This document shows, piece after piece, positions 1,154 through 63,896 of a stretch of 64,000 bases of DNA (position 1 is its first letter; each line of letters starts with the position of its first letter). Below the pieces are notes generated by a model that had not been told where the DNA came from, searched no databases, and saw nothing but the letters and a program-made list of their open reading frames with translations. The position numbers were made by a program, and so were the translations under genes. The stretch comes from Acidobacteriota bacterium (GTDB lineage Bacteria > Acidobacteriota > Blastocatellia > Chloracidobacteriales > Chloracidobacteriaceae): contig JACQXX010000060.1 in NCBI GenBank assembly GCA_016208495.1, positions 1 to 64,000 on the forward strand, read 5' to 3'.

Positions 1154-4100
1154 TCAAAGCACATCCTTACTCTTTAAAACCAGACCGGTCAGGATCAGCA
1201 GTACAACAAAAAAGATGCCTAAAATGGCAAAGTTGAGCGGAATGCTGCCATAGGTGGTTCGAAATCCGACATATTCACGTTTGTCATCAGGTGGGTATTC
1301 GATTTTGGGGGCTTTGGGGGGATCCCCAAGGGATGGCATCGGACCTGGATTTCCACCGCCGCCATACATGGCATTATCAGCCCGGCGCTTATAGTCGGTG
1401 AGTTTTTGTTGTTCTTCCTCTCGGTACTCTTCCAAATCATCTTCAAATTTCTTGATTGCCCGATCATTGGCGGCTTTTACCCGCCCGATTTCTCCGTCTT
1501 CGTCATATTCGTCATTGATTCCCCGCATGACATCCAGATCGCTGATGTGTTTGAGCAGGTCATATGACCACATCGCCGGCATGGCAAACCCAATTGCCTC
1601 AGATGGACCTTTGTTTGGTAACACAAGTCCCCCGAAGAGAATCTGGGGAATCAAAACCAGCGGCACTAAACTTGTGGCAACTTCCGAAGTTCGAACACCA
1701 GCCGAAATCAGCAATCCAATCCCAATTCCGGTCATCGTTGTAAACAACATGCAGAGATAAATCAGCACCGGGTTTCCTGGAACGGCTTCGACCACCGCGC
1801 CAACGCCATAGAGCAAGGCACACTGCAACATGCCTATCAAAACCAGGATAATCAGCTTGGAAAAGATATAGGGCAGAATCCCTAAGTTTACCATTCGCTC
1901 ACGTTTATAGACATTGTTTTCCTTGACGATTTCGCGAGCGGCATTCGAGCATCCAAACCAGAGGGACGACAATGCCAGAATAAAATAGGGGAAATCACGG
2001 GTCCAATCATTTCCAACCGCCAGGCCCATCAACAACGCAATCACCGGGGCTTGACCGAGCAAAATCAACAAGTTGAATTTATCAGCCCACATGACCTCAA
2101 AATAGCGCCGCGCCAGCACAAACATCTGGCGGAGACTCTGCCATAATGTGTTGTCATTGGTGGCTTTTCGGGGTGGTGGTTGGGCAGGCAAACGCTGCAA
2201 CCCACTCAACGGCTGAATGATGTATTTTTGATACGCGGTGGATTGCTCAAATTTTCGCTGCCAGCCAATCGCAACCTGGTCGCTGTTTGGATCACCCAGG
2301 GTGTCAAACAGGTTTTTAATACTGTGAATGCCAAAATATTCGAGGCATTCCTGCGGTGGTCCATACCACACCAGCCGACCGCGCATCATCACCACGAGCT
2401 TGTCAAACAGCTTGACGTTCTCCATCGCGTGGGTGGTCAACACAACTGAATGCCCGGCCTCGGAGATTTGCCGGAAGAGTTGCATAATTTTCTCTTCCGT
2501 CCCTGGATCCAGCCCTGATGTTGGTTCATCCAGATAGATAATTGACGGCTTGGTGATCAATTCCACTGCAATTGAAACCCGTTTGCGCTGGCCACCGGAA
2601 AGCTGGGAAATCGGCACATTTCGCCGTGATGTTAACCCCGTCACATCGAGCACTTCGTTGATGATGTTGTCAATTTCAGCATTGGATGTGTCAGACGACA
2701 GGCGCATCTTGGCCACGTAGAACAGCGTCCGGTAGACCGTCAGTTCCCGATGAATGATGTCATCTTGTGGAACATAGCCAATTGATTGCTTAAAGCTATT
2801 GATGTTTTCATACAGGTTGAGGTTATTGACCAGAACTGTCCCCTGATCGGCTGGACGCATTCCGTTGAGGGCATCCATCAGGGTTGATTTCCCGGCACCG
2901 GATGGACCAATCAGCCCGACGAACTCATTGGCTGGAATTGATAACCGTATCCGATCCAACAACTTAATCATCCCTGAGCCATCGCGGTTTTTCACTTCCT
3001 TGGTGAGGTCAATCACATCAATCCGGGATTGGCTACGCGAGTCAAAGACCACGATTCCGGATGGATCCACCTGCAACATATAGGGCCCAATCTGAACCAG
3101 GTCGTTTGGGCGCACCTGACATCGGCTTACTCGCTGGCCGTTCACATACACGCCATTGGTGCTGCCGGTGTCTTCCACCGTCACCGTTCCACCCTGACGA
3201 ACAAATTTGGCGTGGTGCTTGGAAATCTGCAGGACATCGAGCTGTAAATCAGTGTCAGAGCTGCGCCCAAGGGTGAGTACATCTTTGGTAAATTCTTTGC
3301 GGACAACGAATTGGCGGCGTTCACCTGGTGTGGCTCCAGTAGGGGGTTTCTGGCCGCGGACAATCACGGTACCCGCGCCTTCTTCGTGGGCACTGGCAAT
3401 CACCATCGCAGCCGCCTGGGCCGGATTAACAAATCGAAGTTCTGGTCCGCCAAACCCAAGCTGGATTCGATTTCCATGGCGCAGGGGGGTGGGCGAAGCA
3501 ATCCGTTGCCCATCCAGCAATGTGCCGTTAAATGACCCCAAATCACACAGCAGATATTCGCCGTTCCTGGCTTGAATTTCAGCATGGCGGCGGGACACGG
3601 TGGGAAACACGGCTGGATCCAACCGAATCTGGTTGGTTTCTTCCCGCCCAAGCAGCATCGTGCCGCTACTGGCAAGCTTGAATTGCTCCGTTCGATTCCC
3701 ATTGAGCAACTCCAGGTACACACTGACCGTAACCGGACCATTTCCGCCACTGGATGGCGGTGATGAAAGGGACGGAGACGAAGGAGGGAGTGAAGGGGTT
3801 GACGAAAGTGGAGGTTGTGGTTCAGCCGGAGGCGTGAAACGCACCGAGGCCGGCGGCTGTCCACCACCCCCTTGTGAAACCGGACCAGGCATTCCCGAAG
3901 GTGGCCGTGTCATGGGCTGAACTGGTGGCGAAACCGCCGGAATGGCATTTGGACTTGAACTTACCCCGGCGGCAGGAGATGCCAGAGGTAGTGGTGAGAC
4001 TTCGACTTGCCCGTGCGGATCAAAACTATCAATCCGGATCACCGGGCCACCTTGTCCAAACTGCACGATACACCCAGGTGTCAGCAGTACAGGTCGGTCA

Positions 4101-4585: not shown

Positions 4586-4672
4586 GACAAGGGGACAGGG
4601 GAACAAGGGGACAGGGGGACAAGGGGACAAGGTGACAGGGTGACTGAAGGACAGATTGTCACCTTGTCATTC
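4586..4672. repeat. GACAAGGG/GACAAGGT tandem repeat with inverted end
   Basis: Octamer-like units (GGGGACAA, GGTGACAG) run to about 4645. They are followed at 4657-4670 by the inverse TTGTCACCTTGTCA, so the transcript could fold into a hairpin. The block lies in the 579-bp gap between the ABC gene and the small secreted protein gene. The rest of that gap (4328-4585) holds no gene I can support; the ABC gene promoter should lie there. Confidence 0.8.
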
Positions 4673-24250: not shown

Positions 24251-24841
24251 TCAGACTTTCGCCAGCGTTAGCCCCTGCTGGTCCTGGTACTTGCCGGAGC
24301 GGTCCTGGTACGACGTGGAGCATTCTTCGTCAGATTCAAAGAAAATAATCTGGACAAAGCCTTCTTCGGCATAGAGCCGCACCGGAAGGTTGGCGGCATT
24401 ATAGAGTTCGACTACCAAACGGCCACGCCAGTTAGCCTCCAGTGGTGTTGTATTTACAATTAGTCCGCAGCGTGCATACGTCGATTTCCCAAGAGCAAGA
24501 GCAGTAACATTCCGTGGCATATGAAAGCGTTCAATCGTCACACCCAATGCGTAGGAATGCGGCGGCAACAGCCAATAATTTGAACCATCGGTGTCTTTGC
24601 GGAGTGGAATATCCAAAAGACTGCTCGAATCAAAGTTCTTCGGGTCAATTTCCGTTCCCTGAATTGGGGAAAACACTTTAAACTCATCTTTTGCCAGCCG
24701 GCAGTCATACCCGTAACTCGACAACCCGCAACTAATCACTTTGCGGTCTTCAACCTGGCGAATCAGTTTTGATTCAAATGGGGTAATAAGTTGGTTCTCT
24801 TCGCACATCCGAAGAATCCAGCGATCTGATTTGATAGCCAC
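24251..24841 (-). CDS. dcd: dCTP deaminase
   Basis: A 196-residue enzyme of the usual Dcd length. It deaminates dCTP to dUTP as a step toward dTTP in the cytosol. Family motifs are SSYGYDCRL, the Arg/Ser segment GKSTYARCG and the catalytic Glu in TPLEANWRGRLVVELYN. The end GKYQDQQGLTLA is typical of the nucleotide-binding C-terminus. Whether it is mono- or bifunctional (dCTP to dUMP) cannot be decided here. It is the first gene of a minus-strand run with MNT and HEPN genes. dCTP deaminases are also known as anti-phage nucleotide depleters, but this copy looks like the housekeeping enzyme. Confidence 0.95.
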   Translation of the reverse strand: MAIKSDRWILRMCEENQLITPFESKLIRQVEDRKVISCGLSSYGYDCRLAKDEFKVFSPIQGTEIDPKNFDSSSLLDIPLRKDTDGSNYWLLPPHSYALGVTIERFHMPRNVTALALGKSTYARCGLIVNTTPLEANWRGRLVVELYNAANLPVRLYAEEGFVQIIFFESDEECSTSYQDRSGKYQDQQGLTLAKV

Positions 24842-24874
24842 GAAATGTTCACCTGTTTTTTTGGAATTTAGTTT

Positions 24875-25094
24875 GTAGTCAGTAGTCAGTAGTTGATAAG
24901 TCAGTAGTCAGTAGAATTTAGTCAAAATCTTTTGGCAATGACCGAGATTCGTTCCGTGTGAAAATGTGATAACTGAAGATATTTGACACCAATTTACAAG
25001 GAAATCCTCGTGTTAGAAAACAGTCAAAGGATTCAACCAAATAAACTCAGTGAACTACTGACTACTGACTTATCAACTACTGACTACTGACTAC
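24875..25094. repeat. Array-spacer-inverted array element with perfect 40-bp arms
   Basis: The left arm 24875-24914 is built from GTAGTCA heptads interrupted once by GTTGATAA. The right arm 25055-25094 is its exact reverse complement over all 40 positions. The 140-bp spacer has no coding potential. The element ends 14 bases before the ATG of the secreted protein gene. A TTTAG motif flanks it on both sides (24867 region and 25095), which might be a trace of insertion. Confidence 0.93.
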
Positions 25095-25108: not shown

Positions 25109-26323
25109 ATGCGAACTCAGAACGCAATCTCTCGCAATCTCTGGTGTTTGATCCTTATCGTAGCGGCTGGCTTGACGCCCGTGGTTCAGGCTCAGTCGGG
25201 AAATCGTCGGTTGCCGCCTCCACGCGACATTGACCCGCCGGCCACAGTTTCGCCGAAACCAGCTTCGCAACCGGCCCAGACGGAACCAACCGTTACCGAA
25301 CCACTCACCGAACGTGAGTTCTTTGGCTTGCTCCAGCAGGTTCAAAAACGTGGAGTCACCCAGGGAGACATTGCCGGAGCACTCGATGAACGTGGCATTG
25401 CTTTCGAAGCCACTGACGCCCTGATCGAACGCGCCCGCAAGGCCGGCGCCCAGTCGTTTCTGGTCGCGGCGCTCCTCCGGGCTGAGGATCGCCGCAAACG
25501 GGCCCGCTACGCCGATGAAACCGCGCCGCCACCTGGCCAGCGACCCGTCTTAAAACCGGCGCCAACCGAAACGGAACCGGACCAGCCGTTTGACCCCGAA
25601 GCAGCCGAACAAGAAATGCTCAGCCGGCTCTCTTTGCTGGAACAAACCCGCTATCACGTGCTCAAAAGCGTGGATGATTTCCCCAACTTCATCGTCCGTC
25701 AAAACATCCGCCGCCTGAAAAATAAGGGCGGCGGCTGGTATGAAGACGATGTACTGGGAACGGAAATTACCTACGAGCAAGGCGAAGGCGAAAAAGTCAA
25801 CCTGTTGACCATCAACAATGTACCGACGTCAAAAACCTTTGCCAGCGTCGGGGGGTCAACTTCGATTGGTGAGTTTTCATCCCGGCTCCTGGCACCCTTT
25901 GTGCGGCAAAGCAAAACAGACTTTAAGGAGGCTGGGCGGGAAAATTATCGCGGGCGGGACTGTGCGATTTTTGATTTTTCCGTGGCACAGGAAAACTCAA
26001 ACTACTCTATCGAGGGCGTGGGGCCAGACGGACAACGACAACAAATCATCGCGGCTTATGATGGTCGGATGTGGATTGATCGGGCATCAAAACGGGTGGT
26101 TCGGATCGAACAATCTGCGGTTCGGATGCCTCGCGACTTTCTATTTTCGCAGGCTGAAACCGCCGTCGAGTATGACTGGACCGAGATCGGAGAAAAACGG
26201 TACTGGCTACCAATTACGGCAGAAACCCTGATTGGCAGCGACCGCTATGACTACTATTCGCGCAACGTTATCAAGTTTTATGACTACCGCAAGTTTGAAG
26301 CGGATGTGAAGATATTGGATTAG
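25109..26323 (+). CDS. Secreted protein of unknown function
   Basis: A 404-residue protein with a clear signal peptide (LWCLILIVAAGLTPVVQAQ), followed by a Pro-rich low-complexity stretch to about residue 60. Residues 60-130 are helical and repeat-like. The C-terminal 230 residues are beta-rich, with conserved-looking segments DDFPNFIVRQNI, YRGRDCAIFDF and AYDGRMWIDRASKRVVRIEQ. The latter pattern recalls outer-membrane lipoprotein carrier or sorting domains (LolA-like folds), but this is only a resemblance. It is predicted to be periplasmic. I do not recognise a named family. The start lies immediately behind the 220-bp inverted array element. Confidence 0.8.
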   Translation: MRTQNAISRNLWCLILIVAAGLTPVVQAQSGNRRLPPPRDIDPPATVSPKPASQPAQTEPTVTEPLTEREFFGLLQQVQKRGVTQGDIAGALDERGIAFEATDALIERARKAGAQSFLVAALLRAEDRRKRARYADETAPPPGQRPVLKPAPTETEPDQPFDPEAAEQEMLSRLSLLEQTRYHVLKSVDDFPNFIVRQNIRRLKNKGGGWYEDDVLGTEITYEQGEGEKVNLLTINNVPTSKTFASVGGSTSIGEFSSRLLAPFVRQSKTDFKEAGRENYRGRDCAIFDFSVAQENSNYSIEGVGPDGQRQQIIAAYDGRMWIDRASKRVVRIEQSAVRMPRDFLFSQAETAVEYDWTEIGEKRYWLPITAETLIGSDRYDYYSRNVIKFYDYRKFEADVKILD

Positions 26324-32894: not shown

Positions 32895-33536
32895 ATGTCG
32901 GATGAGACCCCGAAGGCCGAGAAGCCTAAACCAACTCCCCCAGCCAAACCCGCCGGAGGTGCCGCCAGGCCGACACCGACGAAGAAAGAAGCCGTCCAGG
33001 TTATTTTTGAACTGACCGGCGACCCGTTGATCGAAACCCTTAAAGCCAAATTTCCGGGTGCGATCAAGGAAGCGCAACTGATCCACAATCAACAGGTGAT
33101 CCGTGTCGCGTTGGAGTCAACCTATCAGGTGCTGTGCTTTCTCAAATCAGAAGCCGACCCCGATTTTAATTTTTTGACCGACCTGACCGCCGTTCACTTC
33201 CCGGACCGTGGGTTTGAAGTCATTTATCAGTTGTATGCCATGGATGAAGCTCGTCGGTTACGGGTCAAAACTGATGTCACCGAACAGGACAGCGTTCCAT
33301 CCGTGGTTGATCTCTGGAGCACCGCCAACTGGCTAGAGCGCGAAGTCTTTGATTTGTTCGGCATCCGGTTTGCCAATCACCCGGACTTGAGACGGATTCT
33401 GCTTCCGGAAGGCTGGGAGGGTCACCCATTACGCAAGGATTACCCGCTCGAATATCAGGATAATCAATGGGTTGCCGATCATTTAAACATCCTTGAACTC
33501 CCGGTCAATGCAGATTTGACGGGGAAATTTGAATAG
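32895..33536 (+). CDS. nuoC: NADH-quinone oxidoreductase subunit C
   Basis: A peripheral-arm subunit of respiratory complex I. The 213 residues include a Lys/Pro/Ala-rich N-terminal tail of about 35 residues not usual in NuoC. The conserved region is complete: STANWLEREVFDLFGIRF, NHPDLRRILLPEGWEGHPLRKDYPL. It is not fused to NuoD. It opens the cluster nuoC-D-H-J-K-L-M-N. The genes nuoA, B, E, F, G and I are not in this window. The start has no clear ribosome binding site, so the N-terminal tail could be shorter than stated. Confidence 0.95.
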   Translation: MSDETPKAEKPKPTPPAKPAGGAARPTPTKKEAVQVIFELTGDPLIETLKAKFPGAIKEAQLIHNQQVIRVALESTYQVLCFLKSEADPDFNFLTDLTAVHFPDRGFEVIYQLYAMDEARRLRVKTDVTEQDSVPSVVDLWSTANWLEREVFDLFGIRFANHPDLRRILLPEGWEGHPLRKDYPLEYQDNQWVADHLNILELPVNADLTGKFE

Positions 33537-33539
33537 AAA

Positions 33540-33678
33540 GCGAGTGGCGAGTAGCGAGTAGCGAGTAGTCAACCAAAATGAGTTTTAAGAACAGTTGAAG
33601 AAGCCCAGTTCAATTTCAATCTGATTTTATAACTCGCTACTCGCTACTCACTACTCGCCAGGTTCGCTACTTCGCTAA
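33540..33678. repeat. Inverted pair of GCGAGTA arrays between nuoC and nuoD
   Basis: The left arm (33540-33569) holds four tandem GCGAGTA or GCGAGTG heptads. The right arm (33631-33676) is the inverse (CTCGCTACTCGCTACT...), slightly degenerate. The spacer is about 60 bp. The element fills the whole nuoC-nuoD gap. Confidence 0.88.
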
Positions 33679-34885: not shown

Positions 34886-35003
34886 GTCACTTTGTCACCC
34901 TGTCATTCTGTCACCTTGTCATTCTGTCACTTTGTCATTCTGTCACCTTGTCATTCTGTCACCCTGTCATTCTGTCACCTTGTCACCTTGTCACCTTGTC
35001 ATC
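34886..35003. repeat. TGTCACCT/TGTCATTC octamer array between nuoD and nuoH
   Basis: About fifteen octamers alternate between TGTCACCT, TGTCATTC and TGTCACTT variants, ending 16 bases before the nuoH ATG. Part of the array is open in frame with nuoH and can be mistaken for an N-terminal extension. Confidence 0.92.
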
Positions 35004-37580: not shown

Positions 37581-37734
37581 GTAGTCAGTAGTCAGTAGTC
37601 AGTAGTCAGGTGTTGGGATTATTCATTTTTCATCCGATGTATCTTGTTCTAAAAACGCAGCTTATGAATCCTTTTTGAGGGAATTTACTGATGAATGATC
37701 TTGGATTTTTCTACTGACTACTGACTACTGACTC
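37581..37734. repeat. Inverted pair of GTAGTCA arrays between nuoK and nuoL
   Basis: The left arm (37581-37609) has four GTAGTCA heptads. The right arm (37711-37733) has three inverted heptads. The spacer of about 100 bp begins GTGTTGGGA, as does the spacer of the copy at 60031. The element ends 28 bases before the nuoL ATG. Confidence 0.9.
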
Positions 37735-45074: not shown

Positions 45075-45087
45075 AAGAATGAAGAAA

Positions 45088-45228
45088 GTGGTTAGTGGTT
45101 AGTGGTTAGTGGTTAGTATTTGGTGTTTAGTATTTGGTGTTTAGTATTTAGAAGTCAATGCTTTCAAAGTAGTACCAGTCACCCGATACCAGGCACTAAC
45201 CACTAACCACTAACCACTAACCACTAAT
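45088..45228. repeat. Inverted pair of GTGGTTA arrays
   Basis: The left arm (45088-45117) has four GTGGTTA heptads and continues into TTTAGTA-like units. The right arm (45193-45228) has five ACTAACC heptads in inverse orientation. The spacer contains GAAGTCAATGCTTTCAAAG, whose complement resembles the spacer of the copies at 54622 and 63793. The rest of the 417-bp gap (to 45491) holds nothing I recognise. Confidence 0.88.
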
Positions 45229-51014: not shown

Positions 51015-51088
51015 TACCGCTAACGGGGCTCGAACCCGTACTCTCTGCCTTGAGAGGGCAGCGTGTTAACCACTTACACCATAGCGGC
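51015..51088 (-). tRNA. tRNA-Glu (CTC anticodon)
   Basis: The minus strand folds as a full cloverleaf of 74 nt. The acceptor stem GCCGCTA pairs with TAGCGGT (one G-U at the end), with discriminator A. The anticodon stem CTGCC/GGCAG holds the loop CTCTCAA, giving anticodon CTC, which reads GAG. The T-arm ACGGG-TTCGAGC-CCCGT is perfect. CCA is not encoded. A run of six T follows the 3' end and probably terminates transcription. Confidence 0.95.
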
Positions 51089-51529: not shown

Positions 51530-51824
51530 GTTGATAAGTCAGTAGTCAGTAGTCAGTAGTCAGTAGTCAGTAGTCAGTAGTCAGTAGTCAGTAGTCAGTA
51601 GTCAGTAGTCAGTAGTCAGTAGTCAGTAGTCAGTAGTCAGTAGTCAGTAGTCAGTAGTCGAGTGTGGGGATTTGAGGACTTGTGTCAAGTGGATTTGGTT
51701 CTATTTGAGTCAGTTAGGAACAATTCTTTTCAAGAATTCCACGGATTCAACGATCCGGGTTTTATCTACTGACTACTGACTACTGACTCATCATCTACTG
51801 ACTACTGACTTATCAACAACTGAC
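51530..51824. repeat. Largest GTAGTCA array with inverted partner
   Basis: Seventeen exact tandem copies of AGTAGTC occupy 51541-51659. After a spacer of 106 bp the inverse array follows (51766-51824), interrupted by CATCAT and ending in CAACAACTGAC. The spacer is homologous to that of the copy at 60031-60442. The element ends 35 bases before the cytochrome c gene. Confidence 0.95.
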
Positions 51825-60020: not shown

Positions 60021-60030
60021 AATTCTTTGA

Positions 60031-60442
60031 GTCAGTCGTCAGTCGTCAGTCGTCAGTAGCCAGTAGTCAGTAGTCAGTCGTCAGTCGTCAGTCGTCAGTC
60101 GTCAGTCGTCAGTCGTCAGTAGTCAGTAGTCAGTAGTCAGTAGTCAGTAGTCAGTAGTCGAGTGTTGGGAATTGAGAGTTTTTGTCAAGTGGATTTAGTT
60201 CGATTTGAATCATTTAGGAACAATTCTTTTCAAGAATTCGACGGATTCAACGATCCGGGTTTTATCTACTGATGCCAGTTAAGGGTTGAAAAAATTGTTC
60301 GTTGAAAACAAAGGACTTATCAAAATCTCAAGTTTCAGACGTTCAATCTGCTGTCTGTAAGTTGTTGATTTTGAAGTCTCAATTTCAACCCTTAATTCGC
60401 ATTACTGACTACTGACTACTGACTCATCAACGACTGACTGGG
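60031..60442. repeat. GTCAGTC/GTCAGTA array element with nested insertion
   Basis: The left arm (60031-60160) mixes two heptad variants, GTCAGTC and GTCAGTA, in blocks. The spacer (60161-60265) is homologous to that of 51660-51765. The right inverted arm begins at 60266, is interrupted by a 131-bp insertion (60272-60402) and resumes to 60439. It ends about 10 bases before the CYTH gene. Confidence 0.93.
60272..60402. mobile_element. MITE-like element nested in a heptad element
   Basis: The ends are inverted over about 23 bp (ATGCCAGTTAAGGGTTGAAA at the left, complement of TTTCAACCCTTAATTCGCAT at the right, with a few mismatches). TACTG stands on both outer sides (60267-60271 and 60403-60407), as a 5-bp target duplication would. 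Because the target is itself a TACTGAC repeat, the duplication is suggestive only. Comparison with the uninterrupted copy at 51766 shows the insertion clearly. Confidence 0.75.
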
Positions 60443-62947: not shown

Positions 62948-63781
62948 ATGACCACTCTGTATGAGAAGGCCCTGGAGGCCGCCCAGTTTTTGTCCCTGCA
63001 AGTTGATCGAACACCTGATGCACTTGTCATTTTAGGTTCTGGCTTAGGAATTTTTGCCGATGCCCTCGAAGGCGCGAAACACGTTGCGTACCATGCAGTT
63101 CCACACTTTCCGGTTTCAACGGTTGAAGGCCACCGTGGTCAGTTTGCGATTGGATATTGTGGTGATGCCTTGTTACTGGTGATGCAGGGTCGCTTTCACT
63201 ACTATGAAGGCTATGACCTGGATTTGGTGACGTTGCCAATTCGGGTCGCCAAACTGATGGGCATTCAGCGGATGGTCGTCACCAACTCGGCTGGTGGATT
63301 AAACGCCGATTTTCAACCCGGCGATTTGATGCTCATCGAAGACCATATCAACGGCCTGGGTGCCAACCCGTTGCGCGGGCACAACGATTCCCGGTTTGGT
63401 CATCGCTTTCCGGATATGACCAATGCCTATGACCCGCTGTATCGAAAAATTGCCACTGAAGAATCAGAAAAAATGGGGATGCGGCTTCAAAGCGGGGTCT
63501 ATATTGCTCTCAGCGGACCGTGTTTTGAAACTCCGGCGGAAATCCGCATGTTTCAACGACTTGGCGTAGATGCTGCTGGGATGTCAACGGTGCCGGAAGT
63601 CATTGTTGCCCGGCATATGGGAATGCGGGTGCTGGGAATGTCGTGTATTTCCAATCTGGCGGCGGGAACCACCGGGGAACCACTCAATCACGAGGAAGTC
63701 CTTGAAACCGGTCTGCTGGTCAGCAAGAAGTTTACTGAATTGTTGCAGCGAACCATCCCCCGGCTTTGTCAGGAAGGATAG
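62948..63781 (+). CDS. punA: Purine nucleoside phosphorylase (trimeric type)
   Basis: A 277-residue enzyme that splits inosine and guanosine into base and ribose-1-phosphate. Family motifs are VILGSGLG, STVEGHRGQF (phosphate His), GRFHYYEGY and TNSAGGLN. The Glu of PCFETPAEIRM and Asn of SCISNLAAG line the base pocket. The length fits the trimeric class. GCGAAGGAAACC precedes the ATG. It is cytosolic and functions in purine salvage. Confidence 0.95.
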   Translation: MTTLYEKALEAAQFLSLQVDRTPDALVILGSGLGIFADALEGAKHVAYHAVPHFPVSTVEGHRGQFAIGYCGDALLLVMQGRFHYYEGYDLDLVTLPIRVAKLMGIQRMVVTNSAGGLNADFQPGDLMLIEDHINGLGANPLRGHNDSRFGHRFPDMTNAYDPLYRKIATEESEKMGMRLQSGVYIALSGPCFETPAEIRMFQRLGVDAAGMSTVPEVIVARHMGMRVLGMSCISNLAAGTTGEPLNHEEVLETGLLVSKKFTELLQRTIPRLCQEG

Positions 63782-63792
63782 AATGAAGAATG

Positions 63793-63880
63793 TGGTTAGT
63801 GGTTAGTGGTTAGTTCTTGGTTCTTCTTCTAAAGCATTGATTTCTAACCACTAGCAACTAACCACTTTTTTCATTCTTCA
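63793..63880. repeat. Inverted GTGGTTA/ACTAACC pair
   Basis: Three GTGGTTA heptads (63793-63815), a spacer with TAAAGCATTGATTTCTAA, then ACTAACC-type heptads in inverse orientation (63846-63866). The spacer closely matches that of 54623-54710. ATTCTTCATTCTTCATT follows. Confidence 0.85.
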
Positions 63881-63896
63881 TTCTTCATTTGTTTTT

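Follow-up and report, generated by a model that had tools for sequence, protein, structure and literature searches.

In the stretch of an Acidobacteriota bacterium genome analysed here (the window: 64,000 nucleotides, contig JACQXX010000060.1 of assembly GCA_016208495.1), two arms of 40 bp built of the heptad GTAGTCA face each other between two divergent genes, at positions 24875–24914 (plus strand) and 25055–25094 (minus strand). This focal locus probably belongs to a group of non-autonomous miniature mobile elements in which the terminal inverted repeats (TIRs) have turned into tandem heptad arrays, that is, to foldback-like miniature inverted-repeat transposable elements (MITEs). The intergenic regions of this bacterium are crowded with small dispersed elements with heptad ends, whose kind is partly known. 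The focal arms are reverse complements of each other without a mismatch (40 of 40 bp), and the same interruption, GTTGATAA, stands at the same place in both, as was stated in a preliminary description of the locus, which concluded that the arms had been copied from each other or move as a unit. The observation is right and the conclusion half right; the arms belong to dispersed units, but it is not copying that keeps them alike.

The orientation of heptad arrays was analysed in a sample of 1,633,012 bp (19.5% of the 8.38-Mb genome). The sample is not random, most of its contigs having been chosen for matches to GTAGTCA or to the core described below; per-base densities in it may be too high, and the polarity should be unaffected. 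Perfect runs of period 7 prevail (355, compared with 0–5 for each of the periods 2–6 and 78 for period 8). Among 597 arrays, neighbours with the same motif at a distance of no more than 400 bp form 81 pairs with the G-rich array at the left and the C-rich one at the right and none in the reversed order; the remaining neighbours are 12 G-G, five C-C, one T-T, and two T-A combinations. The 83 inverted pairs fall into 12 motif classes, eleven of which show the polarity, while the last class (two pairs) has no G/C excess; pairs from the same element family cannot be counted as independent events. Where an intergenic region contains both types, all G-type arrays precede all C-type arrays in 90 of 91 cases (arrays are interleaved in one), and this holds for every gene orientation.

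The GTAGTCA arrays of at least two units number 75, with six near the ends of stretches left out. An inverted partner within 450 bp is present for 35 of them, always on the expected side and never on the other. The paired arrays are located around the 108-bp core (24), around other cores (10), and at the focal locus (1), and the 40 unpaired ones include 21 arrays in a 102-bp MITE and four beside a core. In the genome-wide test proposed in the preliminary description, about half of the arrays are thus paired, while their arms evolve independently.

A core of about 108 bp recurs between (GTAGTCA)n at the left and (TGACTAC)n at the right. A genome search with this core returned at least 41 matches (87 candidates, 40 of them scored), which are 86–99% identical and lie in both orientations. 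In the 30 fetched copies, the arms are present and the surroundings differ, the copies being distributed over many intergenic regions; this recurrence supports the idea that the arms move as a unit. The family has the foldback-like organization, with terminal inverted repeats of tandem repeats around a core. When the 27 copies with both arms readable are compared, the interruption GTTGATAA is found in none of the left arms and in 20 of the right ones. The left arms are nearly pure heptads, with a period-7 identity of 91% versus 53% for the right arms. The similarity of the two arms of one element is 24.89, against 24.78 for shuffled partners (sd 0.52), and 2100 of 5000 shuffles reach the observed value. 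Since the arms differ in the interruption and are no closer to their own partner than to others, the two ends of the 108-bp element are different and evolve separately, and local copying between arms as a general rule is ruled out by this permutation test.

The 40-bp module itself is also widespread. The sequence GTTGATRAGTCAGTAGTCAG has 57 occurrences in the 8.38-Mb genome; the focal 40-mer is present at eight places exactly and at 41 places with up to three mismatches, and it has no match in dinucleotide shuffles of the window. The six non-focal exact 40-mers are single right-hand arms beside the 108-bp core or its diverged, shortened, or split version. The interruption is a mark of a dispersed family and is not private to the focal locus. 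Because the module is dispersed over the genome, two matched interruptions alone are no proof of copying between the focal arms, and the argument that the match requires copying between arms does not hold. In such cases, a matched interruption in two arms should not be read as local copying.

In its right half, which starts at position 24987, the focal core matches a 102-bp MITE with at least 40 further matches in the genome. In the sample, 53 copies of this MITE were counted, and the right TIR is kept in 42 of them. The ends are TACCARTTTG and CAAAYTGGTA, and end pairs cluster at a distance of about 102 bp. Identical 3-bp flanks were found in 19 of 32 candidate TIR pairs, compared with a mean of 5.2 and a maximum of 13 in 10,000 permutations, and 18 of these 19 flanks have the form TNA. 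Thus, both short terminal inverted repeats and a target-site duplication, two marks of a MITE, are present in the 102-bp family. One end of the MITE usually bears a few GTAGTCA units; TNA precedes 26 of 29 heptad-bearing TACCAG ends versus 53 of 682 other TACCAG sequences. A TACCAG tip was also found in some members of the 108-bp family, namely, L080, L094, and L099 among the 30 fetched core loci and additionally L119, which links the two families, most 108-bp members being without the tip. A 102-bp copy at positions 33368–33469 of contig C1 (in L049) lies within a GTGGTTA array and has a TTA duplication, so heptad arrays also act as insertion targets.

The focal locus itself is a hybrid, in which a remnant of the 102-bp MITE is flanked on each side by the 40-bp module known from right arms of the 108-bp family. 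The left arm (24875–24914) consists of GTAGTCA heptads with the interruption and is of the type found in right arms of the 108-bp-core family. It is followed by a sequence (24915–24986) that has almost no match elsewhere, by the MITE remnant (24987–25054, plus strand), and by the right arm. With a query of 140 bases from the focal core, other matches in the genome were obtained only in the right half (starting no earlier than base 58 and in most cases at base 74). The left TIR of the remnant (24987–24996) is degenerate and preceded by TGA, and the usual right TIR, CAAACTGGTA, is absent; the right tip being lost, a target duplication is not visible at this copy. The arms do not extend in either direction beyond their 40 bp, and they are the longest exact inverted repeat of the window. 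Directly outside the left array, AGTTTG (24870–24875, plus strand) stands as it does in the MITE end CAGTTTGTAGTC and could be a TIR fragment, which is a weak reading; it suggests that the core may have been flipped by recombination between the focal arms. A 9-bp direct repeat, GAATTTAGT, brackets the left arm (24864–24872 and 24914–24922) and is unexplained; an exact direct repeat of at least 8 bp between the 16-bp flanks was found for six of 396 arrays.

As for the mechanism, the dispersal, the target duplications of the MITE family, and the polarity of the arrays suggest transposition of elements with ends expanded by slippage. The heptads would originally have been terminal or subterminal repeats in an element with TACCAGT ends, and the arrays would have grown through replication slippage, while a transposase acting in trans would have moved the elements as units. 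The polarity would be fixed because both ends are one terminal sequence read inward. As regards the focal arms, one copy of the module may have reached the locus, followed by copying to the opposite side or recombination with it.

A tentative alternative, possible but not the reading we prefer, is that one of the focal arms arose in situ as a copy of its partner, by hairpin template switching (quasipalindrome correction) or inverted gene conversion. The module is present in only one of the 53 copies of the 102-bp MITE, which is the focal one, and in none of the 27 left arms of the 108-bp family, yet both focal sides have it exactly. In addition, the two focal copies are the sole oppositely oriented pair within 500 bp among the 41 module places. 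Local copying at this single locus is therefore plausible. However, the arms of the 27 elements do not covary, six identical 40-mers exist elsewhere from which the second copy could have come, and copying in situ leaves the fixed polarity unexplained. The module either arrived a single time, with subsequent copying across the hairpin, or arrived on two occasions; copying in situ could be a step within the mobile-element explanation rather than its opposite.

It is unlikely that the arrays are primarily selected structure elements, such as G-quadruplexes, RNA hairpins, or terminators, maintained at gene edges. G-type arrays are nearer to the left intergenic edge in 187 of 232 cases and C-type arrays nearer to the right edge in 187 of 222, so 374 of 454 arrays lie nearer to the predicted edge; gene calls for this count came from a home-made hexamer scorer rather than a standard gene finder, and 45 further arrays lie inside predicted genes or outside the gaps. 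G-quadruplexes were proposed for the GGGAATC arrays of Xanthomonas in the part of the report by Rehm et al. (2015; PMC4692102) considered here. The focal arms fold as a 40-bp stem of −97.4 kcal/mol (z −12), but such a stem energy comes with any inverted repeat. The unit lacks GGG in 63 of the 81 polar pairs, and GTAGTCA has no run of three G, which rejects G-quadruplexes as the common cause. The polarity is equally strict between convergent (13/13) and divergent (9/9) genes, for which no shared transcript would be expected. No compensatory pairs were found in an alignment of the core, but its 89% identity makes this test of RNA structure uninformative; the alignment included 22 of the 30 loci, L082, L084, L086, L089, L092, L094, L096, and L106 being left out. 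A search of the window against Rfam 15 gave nothing above the gathering score except a tRNA at 51015–51088. Independent slippage, with ordinary simple repeats adjoining by chance, fits the dominance of period 7 and the wide range of array lengths, but it is scarcely credible given the 81-to-0 polarity, the recurrent cores, and the recurrent interruption module; it is refuted as the whole explanation and likely remains the source of length variation.

Several results weigh against the mobile-element explanation. No target duplication was detected outside the 108-bp elements (23 elements; flank match of 2.70 versus 3.05 in shuffled pairs), and TNA precedes the TACCAG tip in just three of the 30 fetched core loci. 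Among the GTAGTCA arrays, 15 are neither paired nor located in a known element. No transposase with these ends was found: the genome has nine Y1_Tnp, two DDE_Tnp_1, and no DUF4096 matches, none of them with both ends nearby. A full-length match to the core was detected elsewhere in the sample for 56 of the 83 inverted pairs, these counts being inflated where the core itself contains heptads. For the other 27 pairs, the sample contains no full-length copy, which means that bracketed regions are not always repeated elements; in the GCGAGTA class, the cores are mostly unrelated and of similar length.

The search for a transposase also bears on the affiliation of the elements. An autonomous relative of the 102-bp MITE was found neither in the sample nor at the Y1_Tnp, DDE_Tnp_1, and DUF4096 loci, other transposase families not having been searched. 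TNA target duplications suggest a link to IS5-type elements. This candidate was rejected, there being no DUF4096 match and the two DDE_Tnp_1 loci lacking the ends. A link to RAYT transposases and repetitive extragenic palindromes (REPs) was rejected as well: GTAGTCA arrays occur at none of the nine Y1_Tnp loci, eight of which have no heptad array in the fetched flanks and one a GGGTTCA array, with a lone 9-base match in L203. Moreover, GTAGTCA is not palindromic, and the arms of the arrays pair only with each other.

The unrepeated cores are the main evidence against a simple one-family picture, and they are the reason for considering a bolder reading, which we regard as rather doubtful. The elements would form a general bacterial class, spread across distant phyla and set by its architecture rather than by any conserved sequence: one of many heptads, both ends expanded, the G-rich strand always directed inward, and freely exchangeable cores, with the heptad ends as the unit that is recognised and replicated. 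If this were true, almost any intergenic segment could be bracketed and dispersed.

Among 396 genomes of the phylum, only the source genome (G000) and G026, which represents another family of the same class, match the forward pattern, with 12 and 19 forward-polarity GTAGTCA matches, respectively. The reversed pattern, with a gap of 60–90 bp, has no match in four whole genomes, G026 included. In 388,751 bp of G026, all four G/C-biased inverted pairs share the polarity. In a scan of the contigs of 84,980 species, 14 stretches, belonging to 10 genome records, showed the forward architecture; only the forward polarity was sought, and the scan carries no information on polarity there. The records are labelled as Planctomycetota (including Thermoguttaceae and Gemmataceae), Anaerolineae, Thermoflexus, Bacteroidetes, Opitutaceae, Deltaproteobacteria, and one Klebsiella. 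Judged by eye, the cores in the stretches from other phyla differ from the 108-bp core, and at least one of them recurs within a genome (L147, L155, and L159). These three loci, all from one Thermoguttaceae metagenome-assembled genome, have AAGTAGTCAG-type ends around a common but unrelated core and form an independent family built to the same plan. With GTAGTCA excluded, L147–L160 provide too few pairs for the polarity in other phyla to be assessed (three inverted pairs, all without G/C excess). Viral contigs gave no matches for either polarity, which is uninformative.

Cyanobacterial heptads were reportedly the subject of earlier work by Mazel in 1990. In several bacterial genomes, heptads are the simple repeats that stand out most, and their explanations have been piecemeal, as quadruplexes or translation signals. 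The comparisons that follow refer to parts of the cited papers. Rehm et al. (2015) described convergent pairs of the GGGAATC heptad in Xanthomonas, 70 and 75 in two genomes, with the G-rich strand near the left gene edge regardless of gene orientation (PMC4692102). The intergenic arrays, convergent pairs, and gene-edge rule are thus already known and are the same here; in Xanthomonas, however, there is one motif of the G-quadruplex type (PMC4692102), whereas here at least 11 motif classes occur, most of them lacking GGG, and whole elements are marked by dispersed cores and by an interruption module. Against this background, the strict one-way orientation across many different heptads is unusual. 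MacGregor (2015; PMC4679880) proposed a role in translation for the TAACTGA heptamer repeats found in Beggiatoaceae, Cyanobacteria, and Bacteroidetes. They are likewise intergenic heptads near start codons, with contigs ending in repeats, but paired elements with cores are not described in the abstract or section 10 of that paper (PMC4679880).

Among mobile elements, the Tetris foldback of Drosophila virilis is also non-autonomous and has TIRs with expanding tandem repeats and tips common to a MITE; it is eukaryotic and has units of ~220 bp, whereas here the units are 7 bp in length and the cores about 20–370 bp (PMC4079207). BrickBuilt of Porphyromonas gingivalis is a bacterial MITE with an internal tandem repeat that is always intergenic, but a single array of 23-bp units lies between its small inverted ends, while here the heptad arrays form the inverted ends (PMC4596501). 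The GTAG REPs and REPINs associated with RAYT are short intergenic inverted pairs, and GTAG is contained in each GTAGTCA unit; REPs are palindromes, unlike the heptads (PMC3733652). No elements with heptad-array ends were found in the titles and beginnings of abstracts searched, a weak negative, most subscription journals lying outside the coverage. The presence of at least 11 heptads under one polarity rule, at the ends of dispersed elements and with one of them inside a target-duplicating MITE, points to a common mobile-element origin, which is testable by strain comparison.

As for the surroundings of the focal locus, the left neighbour is a dCTP deaminase-like gene (24251–24841, minus strand; Pfam DCD). 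The right one is an ORF to which Pfam assigned no family; the right arm ends 14 bp before its ATG at 25109.

Further elements of this kind can be noted in the window. A full member of the 108-bp-core family occupies positions 51530–51817 (plus strand), with the left array at 51537–51659, the core at 51658–51765, and the right array extending to 51817 and bearing GTTGATAA at its outer end. In a second member (60030–60431, plus strand; core 60158–60265), the right array is split by an inserted element at about 60268–60402. This further small element has the ends ATGCCAGTTAAGGGTTGAA and TTCAACCCTTAATTCGCAT and interrupts GTAGTCA/TGACTAC arrays as an insertion at two loci, the other being L044 from position 3407. 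A GTAGTCA/TGACTAC pair at 37581–37733 (plus strand) encloses a 101-bp core, of which just the tips resemble the 108-bp family. Contigs C15, C32, C56, C92, C97, and C138 start within or beside GTAGTCA arrays; it is likely that the assembly breaks at these elements, which are therefore undercounted.

Other heptads in the window show the same polarity, with the G-type array at the left and the C-type array at the right: a GTGGTTA/TAACCAC inverted pair with a 76-bp core (45087–45227) and a GCGAGTA/TACTCGC pair whose 63-bp core has no copies in the sample (33547–33649). At 63780–63890, the pairs are nested, GAATGAA being the outer and GTGGTTA the inner heptad, with the C-type partners at the right. 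Elsewhere, the core of a GTGGTTA element is tandemly repeated about three times along with its right arm (C4, 36837–37140; L037). Period 8 is over-represented as well, and the arrays GACAAGGG and TGTCACCC are located at 4586–4653 and 34893–35002 of the window. Finally, an AAGAATT/AATTCTT inverted pair seems, judged by eye, to enclose nearly the whole interval between two tRNA genes (C56, 11415–11528; L176).
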